DNA from: Pontibacter aquaedesilientis
GTDB lineage: Bacteria; Bacteroidota; Bacteroidia; Cytophagales; Hymenobacteraceae
Direction: 5' to 3'
DNA: 64,000 bases
Assembly: GCF_014773225.1 (NCBI RefSeq)
Contig: NZ_JACXAJ010000001.1
Coordinates: forward strand, 744,001 to 808,000
Shown here: one piece after another, positions 20,340 to 27,540 of the stretch
Layout: the number at the start of each line of letters is the position of its first letter
Position numbering within the stretch: position 1 is the stretch's first letter
The notes under the pieces: model-generated
Database searches by the model: none
What the model saw: the letters and a program-made list of their open reading frames with translations, nothing else
What the model was told of the DNA's origin: nothing
Program-made: the position numbers and the translations under genes

Positions 20340-20714
20340 CTAGCTCTGCTCCATGTAAGGTTGCCAGTTGACGATGAGCACCTTCTCGTCGGGCAGCAGC
20401 AGGTACCCGTAGTCATAGCAGAAGTAATAGGTGTTGCCCTGTTTGGTGCGGTAGAGGTGGGTGAAGTGGCGGAAGTCGAAGCCGGCCGCCTGGAGCACTT
20501 CCCGCCGCAGGGTGGTCTTGCCCTCGGGGCTGTGGCGCTGCAGCACAAAGCGGTTATGGCGCAGCTTGTTGTTGATTTCCTTCATCAGGCGCTCGCCCGC
20601 GTTCTGTGCCTTTCGGCTGTTTTTGGCTACCGAGCGGCACTGGTCGCCGCAGAACCGCTTATCGATTCTGCCCGTCAGCTTCACGCTGCAGTTTTCACAT
20701 GTTCTCTCTTGCAT
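20340..20714 (-). CDS. Small zinc-ribbon protein of a conserved Bacteroidota family
   Basis: 124 residues. Begins CENCSVKLTGRIDKRFCGDQCR, a C-x2-C...C-x3-C zinc finger, followed by a helix and a compact domain ending YYFCYDYGYLLLPDEKVLIV. I recognise the overall pattern as a recurring small Bacteroidota protein of unknown function. The ATG at 20714 sits in one unit of a 14-base direct repeat. Divergent from the tyrosine recombinase gene, with the inverted-repeat cluster between them. Confidence 0.75.
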   Translation of the reverse strand: MQERTCENCSVKLTGRIDKRFCGDQCRSVAKNSRKAQNAGERLMKEINNKLRHNRFVLQRHSPEGKTTLRREVLQAAGFDFRHFTHLYRTKQGNTYYFCYDYGYLLLPDEKVLIVNWQPYMEQS

Positions 20715-20744: not shown

Positions 20745-20791
20745 TCCGGCTATACCCGGGTAAGCCGGGTATAGCCGGACTTACCCGGGTA
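20745..20791. repeat. Overlapping inverted repeats upstream of the recombinase gene
   Basis: A perfect 15-bp inverted repeat (TCCGGCTATACCCGG at 20745-20759, complement at 20765-20779) overlaps a second perfect 12-bp one (TACCCGGGTAAG at 20753-20764, complement at 20780-20791). The two hairpins cannot form together. Either a regulatory switch or recombinase binding sites; this is inference. Confidence 0.85.
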
Positions 20792-20846
20792 TTTTACGAC
20801 TGGCTTGGATTTATGTGGTTAATTGCGGTTGTTAATTTCAAGCACC

Positions 20847-22301
20847 ATGCAATTCCCGTCCAATCAGCCAGTTATCTACCTCAACGCTCTGGAGCATGAG
20901 GGCGCTAAATACATCCGCCTATGGCACAAGCCCAACCCTTTTATAGTGAAGCGGCTAAGGGAGGCCAACTGGATCAAGTACAGCAAGACCTATAGGTGCT
21001 TTGTGATGCACCACCGCCCGCAGAGCATGGAAATGACCTTCGCGCACTTTCAGGGGCTGGCTCAGGTGAACACGCGCTACCTCTACCGGCCCAAAAGGCT
21101 GAAGCCTGGCAAGCTGGTGGCTGTTTTGGCTGGTGGCCAGCAGGGCGAGCCCCTCCAAAAGCTGCCGGATTTGCCGGTGGTGAAGCTCCAGCCCATGCTG
21201 GTGGGGGAAAACAAGACGGTGGTCGGCATCACCTTCCGCCACAGCCAGAAGGTATACGAGACCCTGCGCCACAGCAGGCTGGCCACCTGGCAGCTGGAGC
21301 AAAAGTGTTTTGCCATACCCGAAGGCGGACAGCACATACAGGCCCTGGCCGAGGAACTGGAGGGCATTGGCTGGCTATGGCTGAGCCAGGAGCTGGTGGT
21401 GCGCGATATTGTGCTGCTGCGCAGGCTCTGGGAGCAGACCTACGTGAAGGGGGCGGACTACATCCCCTGCCCGATGGACTACCTGGAGAAGCTCTACCTG
21501 CTCAACTACTCCATGAACACGATCCGCACCTACCATTCTCTGCTGCTGCGCTTTCTCAACAGCCACAAAGACAGGGGGCTGGGGCAAATCAACCTCTTCA
21601 CCGAGGAGGACATCAACCAGTACCACCGGCAGATGGTGCAGGCAGGGGCCTACTCCTGCTCTTTCATCAACCAGAGCATTAACGCTGTCAAGTTCTACTT
21701 CCAGCGGGTATTGGGGCGCCACGAGGTGCAGCTCAACAATGTGGAGCGCCCGGAGAAACCCGATAGGCTGCCCACCGTGCTCAGCAAGGAGGAGGTGAAG
21801 CGGATTCTGGAGGCCACCGACAACCTCAAGCACCGCTGCATGCTGCAGCTGCTCTACGCGGGCGGGCTTCGGATCGGCGAGGTGATCAACCTGCGGCTCA
21901 CCGACGTGAAATCGGACCGTAACCTGCTGCTGATCAGGGGCGGCAAGGGGAAAAAGGACCGCACCACCGTGCTCTCGCAGAGGCTGCTGGAGAACCTTCG
22001 GCTCTATTACAGGGAGCACAGGCCGAAGGAGTGGCTTTTTGAGGGGCAGTTTGGCGGGCAGTACACGGCAGACAGCCTGCGCAATGTGTTCCAGGCCTGC
22101 CGCAAAAAGGCGGGGGTGAAGACCAACGCCACGCCCCATACGCTCAGGCACTCCTTTGCCACCCATTTACTGGAGCAGGGCACTGACCTGCGCTACATCC
22201 AGACGCTTCTGGGGCACCGCTCCAGCAAAACTACCGAGATCTACACACACGTTACCACCTACGCCTTGGATAAAATCGTGAGCCCGCTTGACAATCTGTA
22301 G
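20847..22301 (+). CDS. Tyrosine recombinase with duplicated N-terminal module, not IntI-type
   Basis: 484 residues from ATG 20847 (TTG at 20823 possible). Catalytic residues are visible: Arg342 (GGLRIGE), HTLRHSF, LGH, and the nucleophile Tyr466 (TEIYTHV); the C-terminus SPLDNL resembles integron integrases. A SAM-like core-binding domain precedes it (about 215-300). Residues 10-70 and about 100-175 look like two copies of one module (pattern of a Trp/Lys-rich strand, helix and aromatic strand). The roughly 20-residue extra domain between Arg and His boxes that defines IntI is absent. The gene is about 58% G+C and reads toward the cassette array that begins 140 bases downstream. Confidence 0.88.
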   Translation: MQFPSNQPVIYLNALEHEGAKYIRLWHKPNPFIVKRLREANWIKYSKTYRCFVMHHRPQSMEMTFAHFQGLAQVNTRYLYRPKRLKPGKLVAVLAGGQQGEPLQKLPDLPVVKLQPMLVGENKTVVGITFRHSQKVYETLRHSRLATWQLEQKCFAIPEGGQHIQALAEELEGIGWLWLSQELVVRDIVLLRRLWEQTYVKGADYIPCPMDYLEKLYLLNYSMNTIRTYHSLLLRFLNSHKDRGLGQINLFTEEDINQYHRQMVQAGAYSCSFINQSINAVKFYFQRVLGRHEVQLNNVERPEKPDRLPTVLSKEEVKRILEATDNLKHRCMLQLLYAGGLRIGEVINLRLTDVKSDRNLLLIRGGKGKKDRTTVLSQRLLENLRLYYREHRPKEWLFEGQFGGQYTADSLRNVFQACRKKAGVKTNATPHTLRHSFATHLLEQGTDLRYIQTLLGHRSSKTTEIYTHVTTYALDKIVSPLDNL

Positions 22302-22467
22302 AAATGAAGTATATTAGTGTTGCGCTATGGAAGTGATGGAAATGAAAGGCTCCTCTGGTTTTAAAGCCCATAAAAAGGTAGTATCCAAACTCCACACATA
22401 GTGCAGATAGTAGGAGTAGGTAGTCCTGCTATCAGATAGTTAGCCAGCATATGTAATCATAGAAAAG
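22302..22467 (+). other. attI-like region at the head of the cassette array
   Basis: Between the recombinase stop and the first cassette gene. A near-perfect inverted repeat (GATAGTAGGA 22406-22415 and TCCTGCTATC 22424-22433) stands just before GTTAGCC at 22439-22445. That heptamer marks the left border of cassette 1, because its complement GGCTAAC opens the repeat at the other end of the cassette. An attI role is inferred from position. Confidence 0.6.
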
Positions 22468-22944
22468 ATGAATAAAGAAAAGACAGGGTATGAAAAACAA
22501 CTTTCTGACATTAAAGAGCATGGACTACATGTTATTCATGTTTTAGAAGATGAAAAAGGTCCTAGCTTTTCTTATTCAGTAGGGCTGTTTCACAATTATC
22601 AGCATCCAGAAATCATAATGATTGGGCTAAAAAGAGAATTAGCCCATATACTGATCAATAATATTGCCTTTGACATCAAAGAAGGCAAAATATTCAAGGG
22701 TGGACAGTTTTACTCTGATATATTAGATGATTTTGAGTGCCTAATGCTAGACGTAGAAGCGAAAAACTATGATGAATACTTTGGGCAGGCAAGCAGGTTT
22801 TATGAAAGCAATGATTTCCCTGTGTTGCAGTGTGTTTATCCAACTGTAAGTGGGGTATACCCATGGGAAGATAATTGGCCAGAAAACCTAAAAGACATCC
22901 AACCATTATTGGGCAAAATCAATAGAAGCATTATCGAGAAATAA
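22468..22944 (+). CDS. Cassette 1: DUF4262 domain protein
   Basis: 158 residues. Matches DUF4262: HGLHVIHVLEDEKGPSFSYSVGLFHNYQHPEI is the characteristic opening, with a conserved YPTVSGVYPWEDNWPENL-like C-terminal motif. Function unknown; cytoplasmic. ATG lies 22 bases after the GTTAGCC cassette border. G+C is far lower than in the host genes on either side, in line with capture from elsewhere. Confidence 0.85.
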   Translation: MNKEKTGYEKQLSDIKEHGLHVIHVLEDEKGPSFSYSVGLFHNYQHPEIIMIGLKRELAHILINNIAFDIKEGKIFKGGQFYSDILDDFECLMLDVEAKNYDEYFGQASRFYESNDFPVLQCVYPTVSGVYPWEDNWPENLKDIQPLLGKINRSIIEK

Positions 22945-22950
22945 TACATT

Positions 22951-23004
22951 GGCTAACCACACCCATAAGCCAGCTACGCCGCCTTATGGCCAAGTCCGTT
23001 AACT
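22951..23004 (+). repeat. attC-like site 1 (54 bp)
   Basis: Opens with GGCTAAC (22951-22957), complement of the cassette 1 left border, and closes with GTTAACT (22998-23004), left border of cassette 2. Inner arms CCATAAG and CTTATGG are perfect complements around a 13-base loop. Confidence 0.88.
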
Positions 23005-23016
23005 GTTATAAGAATT

Positions 23017-23490
23017 ATGAATAAAAAGAAATGCTTTTTAGGCCTTGCCTTAATTCTTGTGACAGTCTTGTCTTACGGCCAGAATAACTATGTTAACCCA
23101 ACAGGTTCATATACTTTGCAAGGTAAAAAGCTTAAGAATGGAGAAAGAGCTAACTACGGTGAAGTTCATGTGAAACTTATTGGCAACAACCGATTAGCAA
23201 TTAGCTTCTACTACAATAAAGGCTATCCAAGCTACAATTCTGGTTCCTTTGTGGACACTTTGGATTATGTTGACAATAAGGCCGTCTATACCTATGATGA
23301 GCCTGAAATACCTACATCTGATTGTAGATTGACATTCACATTTCACAAGCAAAAAGTTACCATCAATCACGAAGCAGAAGATTACAATTATAGCTGTGGA
23401 TTTGGAATGGGAGTAGTTGCAAGTGGGATTATGATTAAAACATCTGCCAAAATACCAGAGATTAAGGATTTCTGGGAGAACGAAGAATAA
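23017..23490 (+). CDS. Cassette 2: secreted protein of unknown function
   Basis: 157 residues. Clear signal peptide (1-21, ending SYGQ), then a beta-rich domain with TGSYTLQGK opening and three late Cys (two in the segment SDCRLTF...YNYSCGFGMGV) that could form a disulfide. No family recognised. ATG 19 bases after the GTTAACT border. AT-rich relative to the host. Confidence 0.75.
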   Translation: MNKKKCFLGLALILVTVLSYGQNNYVNPTGSYTLQGKKLKNGERANYGEVHVKLIGNNRLAISFYYNKGYPSYNSGSFVDTLDYVDNKAVYTYDEPEIPTSDCRLTFTFHKQKVTINHEAEDYNYSCGFGMGVVASGIMIKTSAKIPEIKDFWENEE

Positions 23491-23494
23491 CATC

Positions 23495-23559
23495 AGTTAA
23501 CCCAGCACATAAGCCAAGCTTGGCTAAGCCTCGCTCACCTTATGTACAAACCGTTAGCC
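23495..23559 (+). repeat. attC-like site 2 (65 bp)
   Basis: Opens with AGTTAAC, the exact complement of the cassette 2 left border GTTAACT (8 bases match counting the flanking C). Closes with GTTAGCC (23553-23559). Inner arms ACATAAG / CTTATGT. Confidence 0.88.
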
Positions 23560-23597
23560 CTAAGTTAATTTATAAAAACATAAGAAAAATAGCCTTT

Positions 23598-23942
23598 GTG
23601 ACTGAAAAACCGAACATACTGGTAGTTTGTGGACGAAACAAGAGAAGAAGCAGAACAGCAGAGTACATCTTTAAAAATGACATGCGCTTTAACATCAGGT
23701 CAGTCGGGCTTAGCCCAAAGAGTGAAAGGCAAATAAAAGAAAAGGACGTACTCTGGGCTGACATCATTTATGTTATGGAACAAGGACAGGGGGCAAGAAT
23801 TGCAGGAACCAACAGGCAATTGGAATTACCTCCCCTAGAAGTACTTCATATAGAAGATGAATACGAGTACCTTGAGCCTGAACTGATAGAAATGCTAAAA
23901 GACAGAATCAATTCATCTCTCAAGGTAGTGTACAAAATTTGA
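23598..23942 (+). CDS. Cassette 3: small LMW protein-tyrosine-phosphatase-like protein
   Basis: 114 residues from GTG 23598, which gives the start TEKPNILVVCGRNKRRSRT typical of this family; the frame is open back into the repeat but has no good start there. The phosphatase loop C-x5-R-S is intact (Cys11, Arg17, Ser18). The classic DP general-acid pair is not seen: the late segment reads HIEDEYEYLEPELI. Phosphatase or arsenate-reductase-like activity is possible, not proven. Confidence 0.8.
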   Translation: MTEKPNILVVCGRNKRRSRTAEYIFKNDMRFNIRSVGLSPKSERQIKEKDVLWADIIYVMEQGQGARIAGTNRQLELPPLEVLHIEDEYEYLEPELIEMLKDRINSSLKVVYKI

Positions 23943-23953
23943 AGAAAACCTGT

Positions 23954-24007
23954 GGCTAACCACACCCATAAGCCAGCTACGCCGCCTTATGGCCAAGTAC
24001 GTTAGCG
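23954..24007 (+). repeat. attC-like site 3 (54 bp)
   Basis: Opens with GGCTAAC, complement of the cassette 3 border GTTAGCC, and closes with GTTAGCG. Outside the last bases it is nearly identical to site 1, with one change in the final spacer. Confidence 0.88.
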
Positions 24008-24033
24008 TCAACAGGTAATTACGAATTCACGAA

Positions 24034-24381
24034 ATGGATGATAGGAAAGAATCTATTCTAACCCTCAGGAGAATTACTTCTGAATTTCTTAAAGGAGACC
24101 TCGACTTTATAAAATATTACGAAGTACTCTCCTTTGAATTAGGTTCTACTTTTGATCCTTTTGATTGGACAACGGAAGATTTGGAGAGTGAATTAGTTGA
24201 AGAGCTAAAGCTATATTTGAAATTTTCTGGTGGCGAGTTTGGAGAGCATAATGACTTCATTCCAAAGAATAAAGAATGGAAGTATGGAGAATCAGACGTG
24301 AAATATGCATGGATTGATTCTACAGAGTACAAAAAGCTTCTAAAGAGAGAGTATTCTCTAATTAAACTGAAAAAACTGTAA
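24034..24381 (+). CDS. Cassette 4: orphan protein
   Basis: 115 residues, acidic in the middle and basic at the C-terminus (KKLLKREYSLIKLKKL). No signal peptide or membrane helix. Helix-rich N-terminal half, WKYGESDVKYAWIDSTEY in the C-terminal half. No family recognised. Assigned as a gene from its place between two attC-like sites, strand and ATG. Confidence 0.65.
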   Translation: MDDRKESILTLRRITSEFLKGDLDFIKYYEVLSFELGSTFDPFDWTTEDLESELVEELKLYLKFSGGEFGEHNDFIPKNKEWKYGESDVKYAWIDSTEYKKLLKREYSLIKLKKL

Positions 24382-24390
24382 AACTGCATA

Positions 24391-24456
24391 CGCTAACCCA
24401 GCACATAAACCATGCTTCGGCTACGCCTTGCTCGTTTTATGTACAAACCGTTGTAG
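24391..24456 (+). repeat. attC-like site 4 (66 bp)
   Basis: Opens with CGCTAAC, complement of cassette 4 border GTTAGCG (8 bases counting the flanking A), and closes with GTTGTAG. Inner arms ACATAAA / TTTATGT. Confidence 0.88.
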
Positions 24457-24469
24457 TAAATTTGAATTA

Positions 24470-24874
24470 ATGAATATTAGCCCCTCAATAATTGCTAATG
24501 TTGGTCTTGCCCTAACAGTAATTATAGCTTTGGCAGGAATAGATAAAAGGTTAAGAAGTGATAGGACATTACTAGTTATGGGTGTCGCAGCCTTGACAAT
24601 TGGCATTGTTGGATTCTTAATCAGAAGTGAAAGTACAGGTATGGCAAGAGGGAATGCAGCTGACTTTTTGTTTGGCCCTTTCATCTATGTGCTTTCATAT
24701 GGACTTCTTAGAAAGCTGTATAAAAGTATATACAAAGTTGAGCCTACTTATGTATGGCTATCTGGCTATGACGCAGAGGACATGAGAGATGTTAATTTTC
24801 TTGATAAAGTTGTCTATGTTCTGCCACTTCTGTTAGGAATGGTGCTCCCATTTATTGGAAAAGTAATTGAATAA
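24470..24874 (+). CDS. Cassette 5: small multi-pass membrane protein
   Basis: 134 residues from ATG 24470, 14 bases after the GTTGTAG border; an open upstream extension reaches into the repeat and is rejected as the start. Four likely membrane helices (about 6-24, 36-50, 62-78, 112-130). No family recognised. Confidence 0.7.
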   Translation: MNISPSIIANVGLALTVIIALAGIDKRLRSDRTLLVMGVAALTIGIVGFLIRSESTGMARGNAADFLFGPFIYVLSYGLLRKLYKSIYKVEPTYVWLSGYDAEDMRDVNFLDKVVYVLPLLLGMVLPFIGKVIE

Positions 24875-24880
24875 AACTTG

Positions 24881-24945
24881 CTACAACATGGCACAGGCTC
24901 CATACGCAGCTACGCCTCGCTCGCAGCCTGTACTAAACGTTAGCC
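24881..24945 (+). repeat. attC-like site 5 (65 bp)
   Basis: Opens with CTACAAC, the exact complement of the unusual cassette 5 border GTTGTAG, and closes with GTTAGCC (24939-24945). Inner arms ACAGGCT / AGCCTGT differ from the other sites, showing that structure rather than sequence is kept. Confidence 0.9.
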
Positions 24946-24962
24946 AAAATGAATGTTATAGA

Positions 24963-25355
24963 ATGAAAGGACTCACTTTATCAATACTGACAATATTATC
25001 AGTCCTTTACTGTCTTCGCTTCGGGTATATCTGGACAGCTTATGGGCATGGTGGGCAAATGATTGGAATACCCTTCGCTCTACTTATGGTCGGCATGACA
25101 ATAAGGTATGTAGCAGTTAAGGATGAAAGAAGAAAAGAAAAGGTGTTTTATGGGGCTCTGTTTTATTTCTCTGCATTGGCCTTGTTCAGCATAACAGTAG
25201 AAATAATCATAAGCAGTAACTCGAATTACTTTGAGCTACTTTATGCAGAGCCGGGAGGAATCGTGAATAAAATATTCATGGCATTTGCAGCAGCTGGAAC
25301 TATAGCAACATTTCTAAAATTTCGGCAGATAAATAAACAGGAAGCTGTACAGTAG
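24963..25355 (+). CDS. Cassette 6: small multi-pass membrane protein
   Basis: 130 residues from ATG 24963, 17 bases after the border GTTAGCC. Upstream in-frame codons run through the repeat and are not used. Four likely helices (about 4-22, 28-44, 58-78, 96-115). No family recognised; distinct from the cassette 5 protein. Confidence 0.68.
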   Translation: MKGLTLSILTILSVLYCLRFGYIWTAYGHGGQMIGIPFALLMVGMTIRYVAVKDERRKEKVFYGALFYFSALALFSITVEIIISSNSNYFELLYAEPGGIVNKIFMAFAAAGTIATFLKFRQINKQEAVQ

Positions 25356-25364
25356 AATCTCTTT

Positions 25365-25430
25365 GGCTAACCCAGCACATAAGCCAAGCTTCGGCTATAC
25401 CTTGCTCGCCTTATGTACAAGCCGTTGGCA
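25365..25430 (+). repeat. attC-like site 6 (66 bp)
   Basis: Opens with GGCTAAC, complement of cassette 6 border GTTAGCC, and closes with GTTGGCA (25424-25430). Inner arms ACATAAG / CTTATGT. Confidence 0.88.
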
Positions 25431-25448
25431 GCAATTTCTAATTAAAAG

Positions 25449-26030
25449 ATGAATAATACCCAAAGTATAGAGAAGGATTCAAAGTTGCTTTTGCTCATTC
25501 TAAGTATTTCATATGCTCTCTACATTGTGGTAGCATTTGACTTCATCACTCTTTATGAAATATTTGTAGACCTTGCTTTATTCGCGACATTGGTTGGAAG
25601 CATAGTATACATATTCAAAGTTGTTATAGCTTCAGCAAAAACAAAGCATCTCCCAAAAAAGTCTACAATTTTAATCACTTGCGCTGTAGCATTTTGCTAC
25701 TTTCTCACTTTTGGGAATAGAAATGGAATGTTTGAAGGTGGAAAAATATTGGACGCCGCTTTCCTGGATGACAGAAGCAGAATAGACATAGCGCTCTATG
25801 AAAATGGAAAATACATCATATTCTCTAACTGGATGTTTGGTGAGGAAAGGTTTGAAGGGAAGTACAAGCTTGAAGGAGACACAATAAAATTTTTAACTAC
25901 TCCTGTAATTGATAATGACTTTATCGCTCAAGAGGCAATTATTGATAGGAAAGAAAAAAAGATTTATTTCCGCAAGAACATTGACGGAAACTACATAAAG
26001 GACTTTTACTACTTTCAAATTGGTTTCTAA
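25449..26030 (+). CDS. Cassette 7: membrane protein with C-terminal beta-rich domain
   Basis: 193 residues. Three likely helices (about 13-30, 36-60, 73-90) are followed by a soluble domain of about 95 residues with alternating strands (SRIDIALYENGKYIIFSNW, EERFEGKYKLEGDTIKFLT) that looks lipocalin-like. Function unknown. ATG 18 bases after the border. Confidence 0.7.
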   Translation: MNNTQSIEKDSKLLLLILSISYALYIVVAFDFITLYEIFVDLALFATLVGSIVYIFKVVIASAKTKHLPKKSTILITCAVAFCYFLTFGNRNGMFEGGKILDAAFLDDRSRIDIALYENGKYIIFSNWMFGEERFEGKYKLEGDTIKFLTTPVIDNDFIAQEAIIDRKEKKIYFRKNIDGNYIKDFYYFQIGF

Positions 26031-26038
26031 AATAACAT

Positions 26039-26105
26039 CTGCCAACCACGTGTATACTTTATGCTCGGCTACGCCTTACACATCGTCTACACCAGTCCGT
26101 TGGGC
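26039..26105 (+). repeat. attC-like site 7 (67 bp)
   Basis: Opens with CTGCCAAC, exact complement of the cassette 7 border GTTGGCAG over 8 bases, and closes with GTTGGGC (26099-26105). Inner arms are shorter here (GTGTA / TACAC). Confidence 0.85.
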
Positions 26106-26158
26106 GAGACAAAAATCAATATCAACAGTATAATAAAATAAGCGTAAATTGTGACACC

Positions 26159-26482
26159 ATGAAAGCTATCAGAGATCATATACAGCAAATCGAAAATCTG
26201 TGTGATGAACATAGTGTTCGCTCTTTGTTTGCATTTGGCTCTGTAACAACGGATAGATTTAAGCCTGACAGTGATATTGATCTAGTTGTGGACATTGCTT
26301 CTGAAGATCCCATAGAATACTCTGACCATTACTTTGCATTAAAATTTCAATTAGAACAAATATTCCAAAGGGAGATCGACCTTCTAGAGCAGAAAGCAAT
26401 CATGAATCCGTTTCTCAAACAGGAGATTGATCAGACGAAGATACTTGTTTATGGAAAGTTAAATCCGCATTTGGCTGGCTGA
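26159..26482 (+). CDS. Cassette 8a: MntA-like minimal nucleotidyltransferase (antitoxin)
   Basis: 107 residues. Carries the nucleotidyltransferase motif GS-x10-DxD (GSVTTDRFKPDSDIDLVV), with a third acidic residue in REIDLLE. In type VII MNT-HepT toxin-antitoxin pairs this protein adds AMP to the HepT toxin and silences it. A HepT-like frame follows directly and overlaps its 3' end, so the pair arrived as one cassette. Confidence 0.85.
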   Translation: MKAIRDHIQQIENLCDEHSVRSLFAFGSVTTDRFKPDSDIDLVVDIASEDPIEYSDHYFALKFQLEQIFQREIDLLEQKAIMNPFLKQEIDQTKILVYGKLNPHLAG

Positions 26483-26783
26483 CATCAAAAAAGCAATTTC
26501 TGAAATAAATCAGTTTTTACCCGCCGAGAAGAATTTTCTACTCTTCCAAAAAGACCTAAAGACAATAAGGGCAGTTGAGCGTAATCTGGAAATAATTGGT
26601 GAAGCTATCCACAGAATATTGAAAGTTGAGCCTGACATACAGATAACACATGCCCGCAGAATTGTAGACACTAGAAATAGAATAATTCACGGCTATGATA
26701 CCGTATCTGAAGATATTATATGGGCTATTGTAATCCGGGAACTCCCAAATCTTGAACTCGAAATAGAAGCACTGTTGAAATAA
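26463..26783 (+). CDS. Cassette 8b: HepT-like (DUF86) toxin with disrupted start
   Basis: 106 codons that match HepT/DUF86: DIKKAISEINQFL, AVERNLEIIGEA and the RNase motif R-x4-H with following Tyr (RNRIIHGYD). The expected ATG at 26451 inside the mntA end is followed by GAA AGT and then an in-frame TAA (26460-26462). One base change (AAA to TAA) would explain it. Translation could only start at a weak codon such as ATT or CTG after 26463, so the toxin may be off. Too few codons are lost to harm the fold if it is made. Confidence 0.65.
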   Translation: MRIWLADIKKAISEINQFLPAEKNFLLFQKDLKTIRAVERNLEIIGEAIHRILKVEPDIQITHARRIVDTRNRIIHGYDTVSEDIIWAIVIRELPNLELEIEALLK

Positions 26784-26792
26784 AATTGCCTG

Positions 26793-26844
26793 GCCCAACA
26801 CAACCTAAAACATACCAAGGCGTGCTTTAGCCCAGCCGTTATAG
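26793..26844 (+). repeat. attC-like site 8 (about 52 bp)
   Basis: Opens with GCCCAAC, exact complement of the cassette 8 border GTTGGGC, and closes with GTTATAG (26838-26844). Inner arms CTAAA / TTTAG. Confidence 0.82.
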
Positions 26845-26877
26845 GCCAAGCAGACAATCATTGGATGGAGAATGATA

Positions 26878-27471
26878 ATGAATAAAGAGATCGCTCGAGG
26901 ACAAAACAGGTCAAATTCCAAAGTCCTTTTTACAGGTATTGTAACTGTTTTAGTTCTCTCCTTACTTATTTGGGAGCATTATCATGGTGGTATCGCCAGT
27001 CATCATATTCTGCAACAACAAAACCTGCCTGCAATCTCCAATTGGTGGAGCGGATTGTCACTTCCTGTTCTTACATGGTTTCTTGTAGGTATATCGGAAA
27101 AGAGGATTGGCAAACAATCTTCACAGGGACAGCAAACGCGCAACCTACAAATACAGGCTTTAAGACTTTTTGTAACAGGTTTGGGCTTAGGGGTTTTGAT
27201 AGCAACTTCATTCACAAATGGATACAGCGCCTTTTTAGACAACATTCCTTACATCATATTAGTGCTCAGCTTAATTATTCCCATATTTTACGCTGAGTTT
27301 ATCTTAGAATTTATAACTGGCATGACTTATACCTTTGGAGCAATATTGCCCACTGTTTTCATATTCTTACTGGCACTTATTGGAATACTTACCTATAGAT
27401 TTATCAGACCAGCGATTGTAATGCTGACAGTGAAATTGAAAAGCGGTTTGCATAAAAGCCCGAGCCGATAA
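26878..27471 (+). CDS. Cassette 9: multi-pass membrane protein
   Basis: 197 residues from ATG 26878, which has GGAG seven bases upstream; the in-frame ATG at 26872 is too close to it. Five likely helices (about 15-35, 50-70, 88-110, 120-145, 150-172). No family recognised. The stop overlaps CGATAAC, a one-mismatch match to the expected right border CTATAAC. Confidence 0.7.
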   Translation: MNKEIARGQNRSNSKVLFTGIVTVLVLSLLIWEHYHGGIASHHILQQQNLPAISNWWSGLSLPVLTWFLVGISEKRIGKQSSQGQQTRNLQIQALRLFVTGLGLGVLIATSFTNGYSAFLDNIPYIILVLSLIIPIFYAEFILEFITGMTYTFGAILPTVFIFLLALIGILTYRFIRPAIVMLTVKLKSGLHKSPSR

Positions 27472-27484: not shown

Positions 27485-27540
27485 GCAAAGAAAAATCCCC
27501 GGGCAGCACTGAGTGCACAGTCCGGGGATTTTTTCTTTGC
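27485..27540. terminator. Long terminator at the end of the array
   Basis: 18-bp stem GCAAAGAAAAATCCCCGG paired with 27522-27540 (one extra T), loop of 19 bases. A-rich left and T-rich right flanks let it work on both strands. Confidence 0.85.

Follow-up and report, generated by a model that had tools for sequence, protein, structure and literature searches.

A tyrosine recombinase without the IntI insert as the probable integrase of its own cassette array in Pontibacter aquaedesilientis

Introduction

Which enzyme moves the cassettes of an array whose neighbouring recombinase is not an IntI? The question is raised by a locus of Pontibacter aquaedesilientis, in a stretch of 64,000 nucleotides (the window, whose positions are used unless another locus is named), where a tyrosine recombinase gene is followed by a cassette array (Table 1). 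A sequence-only reading of this locus had offered two answers, that the array is a CALIN that lost its integrase or that the enzyme drives a new type of cassette system. Our comparisons support the driver and disfavour the CALIN, with excision by the enzyme still untested. We consider it very likely (a probability of roughly 0.87) that the recombinase is the integrase of its own array; its catalysis is inferred, and no recombination has been observed. Part of this reading is that the enzyme belongs to a little-recognised kind of integron that is common in Bacteroidota, with an IntI-like recombinase that has no insert and carries one to three N-terminal modules.

The plan of the locus is that of an integron, with a recombinase beside an array, an attI-like site, attC sites and circularising cassettes. 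What is unusual is that a folded site would be read without the insert. A widespread lineage of this kind would be a natural test of what a recombinase needs in order to read a folded site, and it supplies a candidate driver for arrays that are now filed as CALIN.

Published lists of integron-bearing phyla include Bacteroidota (PMC8618304, PMC9668308). A 2008 survey, which picked IntI by the IntI-specific domain, lists the Bacteroidetes/Chlorobi group (PMC2426708), and the sole complete integron that the IntegronFinder 2.0 study names in Bacteroidetes proper is that of Salinibacter ruber (PMC9024848). Standard searches can miss the kind of integron considered here because its enzyme lacks the domain that defines integron enzymes. 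Since IntegronFinder demands the profile of the IntI-specific domain (PMC9668308), an IntI-based search would probably call the window array a CALIN, although we did not run IntegronFinder. We found no account of this system in the open-access literature searched, which included no preprints and few subscription journals. In the relevant sections of a LexA paper (PMC8565304), the word 'integron' occurs in the reference list only.

Results

Table 1. Positions of the features discussed (window coordinates unless a locus is named)
Feature	Position	Strand	Remark
Small gene, Cys-rich N-terminus	20340..20714	-	treble-clef-like by eye; divergent from recombinase
Palindromic repeats between divergent genes	20745..20800	.	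by eye; possible operator/promoter, function inferred
Tyrosine recombinase, proposed array integrase	20847..22301	+	484 aa, without IntI insert
N-terminal module 1 (aa 8-80)	20868..21086	+	homologous to module 2; model with five strands, two helices
N-terminal module 2 (aa 106-188)	21162..21410	+	homologous to module 1; AlphaFold model
SAM-like core-binding domain (aa 214-291)	21486..21719	+	PF13495, E 5e-10
Catalytic domain (aa 311-470)	21777..22256	+	PF00589, E 3e-42
attI-like site	22387..22445	+	predicted cut G22439|TT
Cassette 1	22440..22998	+	DUF4262 gene 22468-22944
attC 1	22951..23004	-	50.3 bits, covariance model R1
Cassette 2	22999..23553	+	gene 23017-23490, no Pfam match
attC 2	23495..23559	-	R1, 62.9 bits
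Cassette 3	23554..24001	+	gene 23598-23942; sub-cut-off match to low-molecular-weight phosphatase
attC 3	23954..24007	-	R1, 53.6 bits
Cassette 4	24002..24450	+	gene 24034-24381
attC 4	24391..24456	-	R1, 64.7 bits
Cassette 5	24451..24939	+	gene 24470-24874
attC 5	24881..24945	-	R1, 51.4 bits
Cassette 6	24940..25424	+	gene 24963-25355
attC 6	25365..25430	-	R1, 63.1 bits
Cassette 7	25425..26099	+	gene 25449-26030
attC 7	26040..26105	-	R1, 67.5 bits
Cassette 8	26100..26838	+	nucleotidyltransferase and HepT-like pair, toxin-antitoxin type (PF01909, PF01934)
attC 8	26793..26844	-	R1, 32.4 bits; most degenerate
Gene past last attC; array end	26872..27471	+	no Pfam match
tet(X) plasmid stretches	L244 157-1490; L245 to 2424; L246 3008-4341		

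The recombinase has no IntI insert

The recombinase frame translates with zero internal stops; the mechanical open reading frame begins at a TTG at 20823. Pfam recognizes Phage_integrase (144.7 bits) together with SAM-like domains in the protein. An alignment of 20 sequences, made up of the recombinase and its relatives, shows R342, K367, H431, R434, H457 and Y466 to be invariant; we take these residues to be the catalytic set. Left out of this alignment were L132 and L144, which contain stop codons, and L151, L153, L154 and L161.

The difference from IntI lies between the KGxKxR and HxLRH motifs, which are 58 residues apart in the window enzyme and 58-61 apart in the measurable relatives (two were not measurable). 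Two Xer proteins have a spacing of 64-66 residues and three IntI one of 100; in a fourth IntI it was not measurable. Likewise, the alignment of VchIntIA (2a3v) to the window enzyme falls into two pieces, separated by about 40 additional residues. The integron integrase model TIGR02249 gives 205.7 bits, under its cut-off of 265, and its match is split at model positions 178 and 242, which is the location of the insert. These results uphold the earlier claim of a 484-residue tyrosine recombinase without the extra domain of IntI.

The best NCBIfam match is XerA_Arch (NF040815), at 214.8 bits against a cut-off of 220; the XerC/XerD models are not reached (TIGR02224, 188.1 of 335.15 bits; TIGR02225, 193.6 of 329.6 bits). 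NF040815 carries the product name 'site-specific tyrosine recombinase/integron integrase', and a relative on a Chryseobacterium plasmid is so labelled. We read this NCBI label as a family name and not as evidence of tested function.

In the tree, one clade (100/100) unites the four IntI and another (100/100) the window type, with IntI placed beside some of the module-bearing recombinases (forks 88/86, 94/86 and 95/77). Because merely four IntI and two Xer sequences were included, the tree leaves undecided whether the insert was gained or lost. Judged as an IntI, the enzyme passes one criterion, the conserved tyrosine recombinase residues, and fails those of cut-off, insert and clade.

Two N-terminal modules precede the recombinase domains

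The N-terminal pair of similar modules that had been proposed is also borne out: the two modules align to each other with an hhalign probability of 97.7% (E 1.6e-12), and the AlphaFold model predicts the same order of five strands and two helices in both. By eye, many relatives have one module (about 345-400 aa) and some have three (about 540-560 aa).

What the modules resemble is less certain. The HARP domain has been described with five strands and two helices (PMC4666394), the composition predicted for each module, and the HARP model (PF07443) weakly matches two relatives (E 0.05-0.17; at best 13.5 bits against a gathering score of 25); it gives no match in the window protein itself. In structural comparison, module 1 comes closest to archaeal XPB N-termini, with Z of 5.6-6.5 (6.5 to 2fz4; VIA-align), all below 8, and unrelated eIF1-type rows follow closely at Z 5.2. 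Foldseek with the N-terminal model returned zero matches at or below 0.001, and a profile search of PDB sequences with the N-terminal part found nothing below 0.36. HIV reverse transcriptase, which filled most of the top Foldseek rows, was disbelieved for its poor TM-scores. We also dropped the idea that the modules are proven HARP domains, the scores being under the Pfam cut-off. Unlike the damage-recognition domains of HARP and XPB, the window modules are fused to a recombinase and not to a helicase. The modules are the obvious candidate for reading a folded attC without the insert, but this remains a possibility: their role is inferred, and the likeness to HARP/XPB is a lead only.

Comparison supports a bottom-strand fold of the attC sites

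Covariance model R1 gives eight matches in the window, all on the bottom strand (E 1e-13 to 3e-5), although four of the eight sites were among the 70 on which R1 was trained. The array that had been proposed beside the recombinase is thus present beyond chance. The cassette genes and the recombinase all lie on the + strand and the attC matches on the bottom strand, so the claim that enzyme and cassettes are co-directional also held. Rfam returned only sub-threshold matches on the array region, none of them on attC sites. By eye, a terminator-like repeat lies near 27500, past the gene that ends the array.

Comparison of the 70 sites supports paired R and L boxes and a bottom-strand fold. In an alignment made without structure, 86.1% of cells are paired, compared to 66.8% after shuffling, and covariation is 0.471, compared to 0.174; in slid versions, paired cells fall to 29-39%. 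An important caveat is that the sites were picked for the fit of R'' to the preceding R', and that the pattern scan that found them demanded the L stem, so that the outer stem, unlike the inner one, is partly there by choice. Read on the bottom strand, the stem has 56 G.T and 7 A.C, and 67 of the 70 sites keep a further G.T pair, an excess expected if the bottom strand folds. The scan credited G.T on the top strand, a bias opposite to this excess, and kinship among the sites inflates the counts. Folding isolated sites as single strands gave mixed z-scores (-0.5 to -3.2), and the case for structure rests on covariation instead. The pattern scan matches both strands because attC is palindromic; direction comes from the covariance models. 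Covariation, wobble bias and R boxes together support the folded site, and that the enzyme acts on it as a single strand is our inference.

Cassette starts carry the fingerprint of excised circles

If a circle closes at a single attC, the opening of a cassette (TTRRRY) is the former R' of its own attC, and its own R'' should therefore be complementary to it. All eight attC of the window show this, each R'' complementing the R' at the opening of its cassette at 7/7 nt, or 56/56 nt in all, a fit equalled in 13 of 100,000 reorderings; compared to the R' now standing in the same attC, R'' matches at 36/56 nt. The same fingerprint recurs elsewhere. At the family loci, R'' is perfect to the preceding R' in 70/146 cases, against 9/189 for the site's own R', 4/146 for the following and 7/189 for random ones; this count uses an incomplete site list, the pattern scan missing sites. 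At distant Bacteroidota loci the proportion, over the outer 4 nt, is 66/79, against 9/113 (own), 4/79 (following) and 16/565 (random). We regard this complementarity as the fingerprint of excised circles, and in this sense it supports cassettes that circularise, by inference from sequence and without recombination having been observed.

Comparison between arrays also shows the cassette to be a unit cut at G|TT, and shows that cassettes are shared. Cassette 1, with ends no more than 2 nt from its own cuts, is present at 91.5% within the array of another member of the genus (L073), and cassette 7 recurs at 90.9% in another array of the genus. Arrays of different loci share 40 matches (at least 200 nt, at least 80%), whose edges fall within 10 nt of a predicted cut in 20/40 cases on the left and 9/40 on the right, compared to 48/2000 at random. 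Several further cassettes adjoin attI in one genome and lie deeper in the array of another. L076, L140, L141 and L149 were left out of the sharing count.

An attI-like site and a divergent gene mark the head of the array

A conserved stretch ending in TA|GTT, 126-190 nt past the recombinase stop, is found at 57 of 67 family loci under a strict rule. The remaining ten comprise six with an attI by eye, two with TAGTG (interrupted), one at a contig end and one (L149) without a site. TAGTT itself was the anchor of the search, from which L076, L140 and L141 were left out. Conservation before the anchor reaches 1.5-1.9 bits at positions such as -13, -9 and -8, and past GTTR the sequences diverge, most positions being near background with the exception of +10. 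A primary insertion site is accordingly supported in the window, by comparison only.

Several observations on this site stand apart. The base ten past the cut G is an A in the cassettes at attI of 50 of 55 loci, for reasons unknown. Two related recurrent sequences lie directly at attI in eight loci (L075, from about 6580, L092, L100 and L067; L054, L059, L068 and L120). In L075 this sequence has no open reading frame of at least 120 aa starting in its first 590 nt or so, and some contigs stop just past it. Another element, common to L061 and L123, interrupts attI after TAGT.

On the other side, 62 of 64 family loci have a homologue of the Cys-rich gene no more than 400 nt upstream of the recombinase, in divergent orientation. 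The gene is also found at 7 distant Bacteroidota loci and occurs in 63 of 200 family genomes. It has no Pfam match above cut-off. It may be a regulator or helper of the platform, a possibility and no more. A promoter among the palindromic repeats between the two genes is inferred; repeats of like kind but with other letters are seen at a second locus of the genome (L017 5215-5260) and in several relatives.

The enzyme and attC recur together across the family

The sequence-only reading could have been refuted by homologues without a link to arrays or by a true IntI elsewhere in the genome, and neither was found. Downstream sequence of 1 kb or more is available for 42 of the 56 named family loci (for three of the 42, the match did not include the N-terminal part), and R1 matches occur at 41 of the 42. 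No R1 match was seen at L133, and the pattern scan found no site at L077. The 236 R1 matches at 78 named loci include one weak upstream match (L114) and two plus-strand doubles of bottom-strand matches. The named relatives are from Pontibacter, Rufibacter, Adhaeribacter, Botryobacter and Sabulibacter. Part of this recovery is by construction, because R1, like the second model R2 described below, was trained on sites from such loci, and training and test loci partly overlap.

At the level of genomes, the N-terminal part is matched in 63 of 200 family genomes (some as fragments), and all 63 carry attC. Among the other 137, attC was found in 14 and was missing from 123. A Fisher test on 63/63 against 14/137 overstates independence, because genera differ. 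An IntI above the TIGR02249 cut-off is present in merely 2 of the 200 genomes, one with an internal stop, and in none of the contigs of the window's own genome; one of the 14 genomes (G029) has a true IntI.

Within the genome of the window, attC follows both family recombinases, and six other listed recombinase places have no listed attC within 5 kb. Of the listed attC, 36/45 are away from both family recombinases; this list is incomplete and lacks attC 8 of the window. The second locus (C1:379316-380754) repeats the plan, with a divergent Cys-rich gene, a recombinase, an attI-like site and attC sites (two by R1), and with what we take to be a HigB/HigA-like pair. Its recombinase (L017 5304-6757) is 77% identical in the catalytic part and has a frameshift between the N-terminal modules and that part. 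Clusters of attC without an adjoining family recombinase, possibly served in trans, were noted at C13:646-6265, C1:159686-161832, C1:231674-232952 and C6:14429-16051.

Related loci occur across Bacteroidota

A profile search found strong recombinase relatives in 105 of 395 Bacteroidota genomes, many matched in the recombinase part alone. The distant arrays have attC of about 131 nt, for which we built R2 from 48 training sites, drawn from many of the loci later searched. R2 gives 121 matches in 61 loci, and 121/121 are on the bottom strand and downstream; for some loci less than about 1.3 kb of upstream sequence is present, so that the upstream control rests on L143-L165. A single genome can hold both size classes: the genome of the window has a 131-nt attC of the R2 type at C14:146489-146619 (93 bits).

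Among loci with 1.5 kb or more downstream, an R2 match is present at 29 of the 32 that bear modules, with two or more matches at 23 of them (L232, L233 and L236 have none), compared to 1 of the 12 module-less loci, namely L218, which the tree places in a module-bearing clade. The 32 and 12 loci were hand-picked from the profile-search matches; L220 and others with less than 1.5 kb downstream were left out, and L221 is the place of L214. At the genome level frame size did not separate, attC being present in 59/65 long-frame and 32/37 short-frame genomes, and only the locus-level comparison did. The link between modules and arrays at locus level fits a role of the modules, yet clade and module presence are confounded in the tree.

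R2 matches at or below 1e-6 occur in 188 of the 395 genomes, in 94/105 with a strong recombinase match and in 94/290 without. R2 has no control outside Bacteroidota, where its sole use was on an Acinetobacter plasmid (L238).

Discussion

A model for the locus

Taken together, our results lead to a model in which excised cassettes would be circles closed at a single attC. The catalytic and SAM-like domains would sit on the L and R boxes of the attC hairpin, with the N-terminal modules on the hairpin or on its junction of single and double strand. The enzyme would cut at G|TT and join the circle to the attI that follows its gene. Each new cassette would thereby be added at the array's head, in the same direction as the enzyme.

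A bolder version goes beyond the window. It holds that this is an integron type of its own, very common in Bacteroidota, with attC in about half of the genomes sampled there; that folded attC is handled without the insert through one to three junction-binding, HARP/XPB-like N-terminal modules; that the type went unrecognised because searches use the IntI insert; and that tet(X) is one of its cassettes. As a joint claim, we lean towards this version by only a small margin.

Alternative explanations

The alternative that survives best, although we think it unlikely, is that the enzyme is an ordinary IntI whose insert was lost, which would make it a degenerate offshoot within the IntI family and not a separate type. 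In its favour are the tree forks beside IntI and the TIGR02249 score, as well as a classification of tyrosine recombinases that describes an integron-like subgroup with an incompletely conserved insert, which is nevertheless called essential for function (PMC8138268). The family of the window enzyme possibly falls in that subgroup. Against this alternative, IntI and the window type form separate, fully supported clades, the insert is missing from every measured relative, and the best NCBIfam match is XerA_Arch.

We consider it very unlikely that the array is a CALIN, built by a true IntI that was then lost, with the recombinase an unrelated neighbour. The formal definition does apply, no IntI lying beside the array, and attC clusters without an adjoining family recombinase do occur in the same genome. 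However, the enzyme family stands upstream of attC at all but one of the 42 named loci and in one orientation, both the attI-like stretch and the divergent gene at the head of the array are conserved, IntI above cut-off is nearly absent from the family genomes, and the CALIN criterion that no other recombinase be consistently linked fails.

Equally hard to sustain is the proposal that host XerC/XerD or another tyrosine recombinase moves the cassettes in trans while the head enzyme serves another purpose: the genome does encode Xer-type and other tyrosine recombinases, and many attC lie far from the head enzyme, but both family members have attC nearby where the six other recombinase places do not, and, if Xer is universal as we take it to be, the lack of attC in 123 of the 137 genomes without the N-terminal part counts against it.

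Comparison with known systems

The reading we prefer, an integrase dedicated to its own array, can be set beside known systems, using features of integrons that are general knowledge. Like chromosomal (sedentary) integrons with IntI, the locus has an attI-like site behind the recombinase, attC with R and L boxes, a G|TT cut and a bottom-strand fold, and mostly single-gene cassettes in one direction, which start with a complement of their own R'' and include a toxin-antitoxin cassette. Unlike IntI integrons, its enzyme has no insert, stays under the IntI cut-off, carries N-terminal modules and is encoded in the direction of the array; it is preceded by a conserved Cys-rich gene in divergent orientation, and a G.T wobble is conserved in the attC stem.

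The archaeal Xer of the XerA type (NF040815; 4a8e, 5hxy) share the core-binding and catalytic domains without the insert and provide the best PDB structure and sequence matches. The window enzyme differs from them in its link to cassette arrays and an attI-like site, its N-terminal modules and a conserved NQSINA motif. A CALIN, in turn, differs from the window locus, which has a dedicated recombinase and an attI-like site at its head.

tet(X) and plasmid-borne loci

On plasmids of Empedobacter, Riemerella and Bacteroides, tet(X) is followed by a whole 133-nt attC of the R2 type (62-65 bits). The Empedobacter cassette starts with GTTATGTGCC, which complements the R'' region GGCACATAAC exactly (10/10 letters); the Bacteroides start agrees at 9/10 letters, and the Riemerella start is absent. 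The attC past the gene and this complementarity make tet(X) look like a cassette of the R2 class, and on these three Bacteroidota plasmids such an attC offers an origin for its mobility. We found no account of tet X together with attC in the open-access literature searched.

On the Acinetobacter plasmid NZ_CP041297.1 (L238 6052-8165), about 190 nt separate tet(X3) from the end of an upstream, truncated recombinase relative, and merely a partial attC (15.9 bits) lies past the gene. Similarity between the Empedobacter and tet(X3) plasmids starts at the G of the Empedobacter cassette start.

The recombinase and attC are also found together on a plasmid of Pontibacter kalidii that is typed as mobilizable (L240, six R1 matches) and on one of Chryseobacterium (L239, three R2 matches); on a Rufibacter tibetensis plasmid, only a recombinase match (H42) was seen. 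The arrays of two plasmids contain IS110-family transposases, with a group II intron near one (L239 10041-11042 and 12507-12783; L240 13204-14559).
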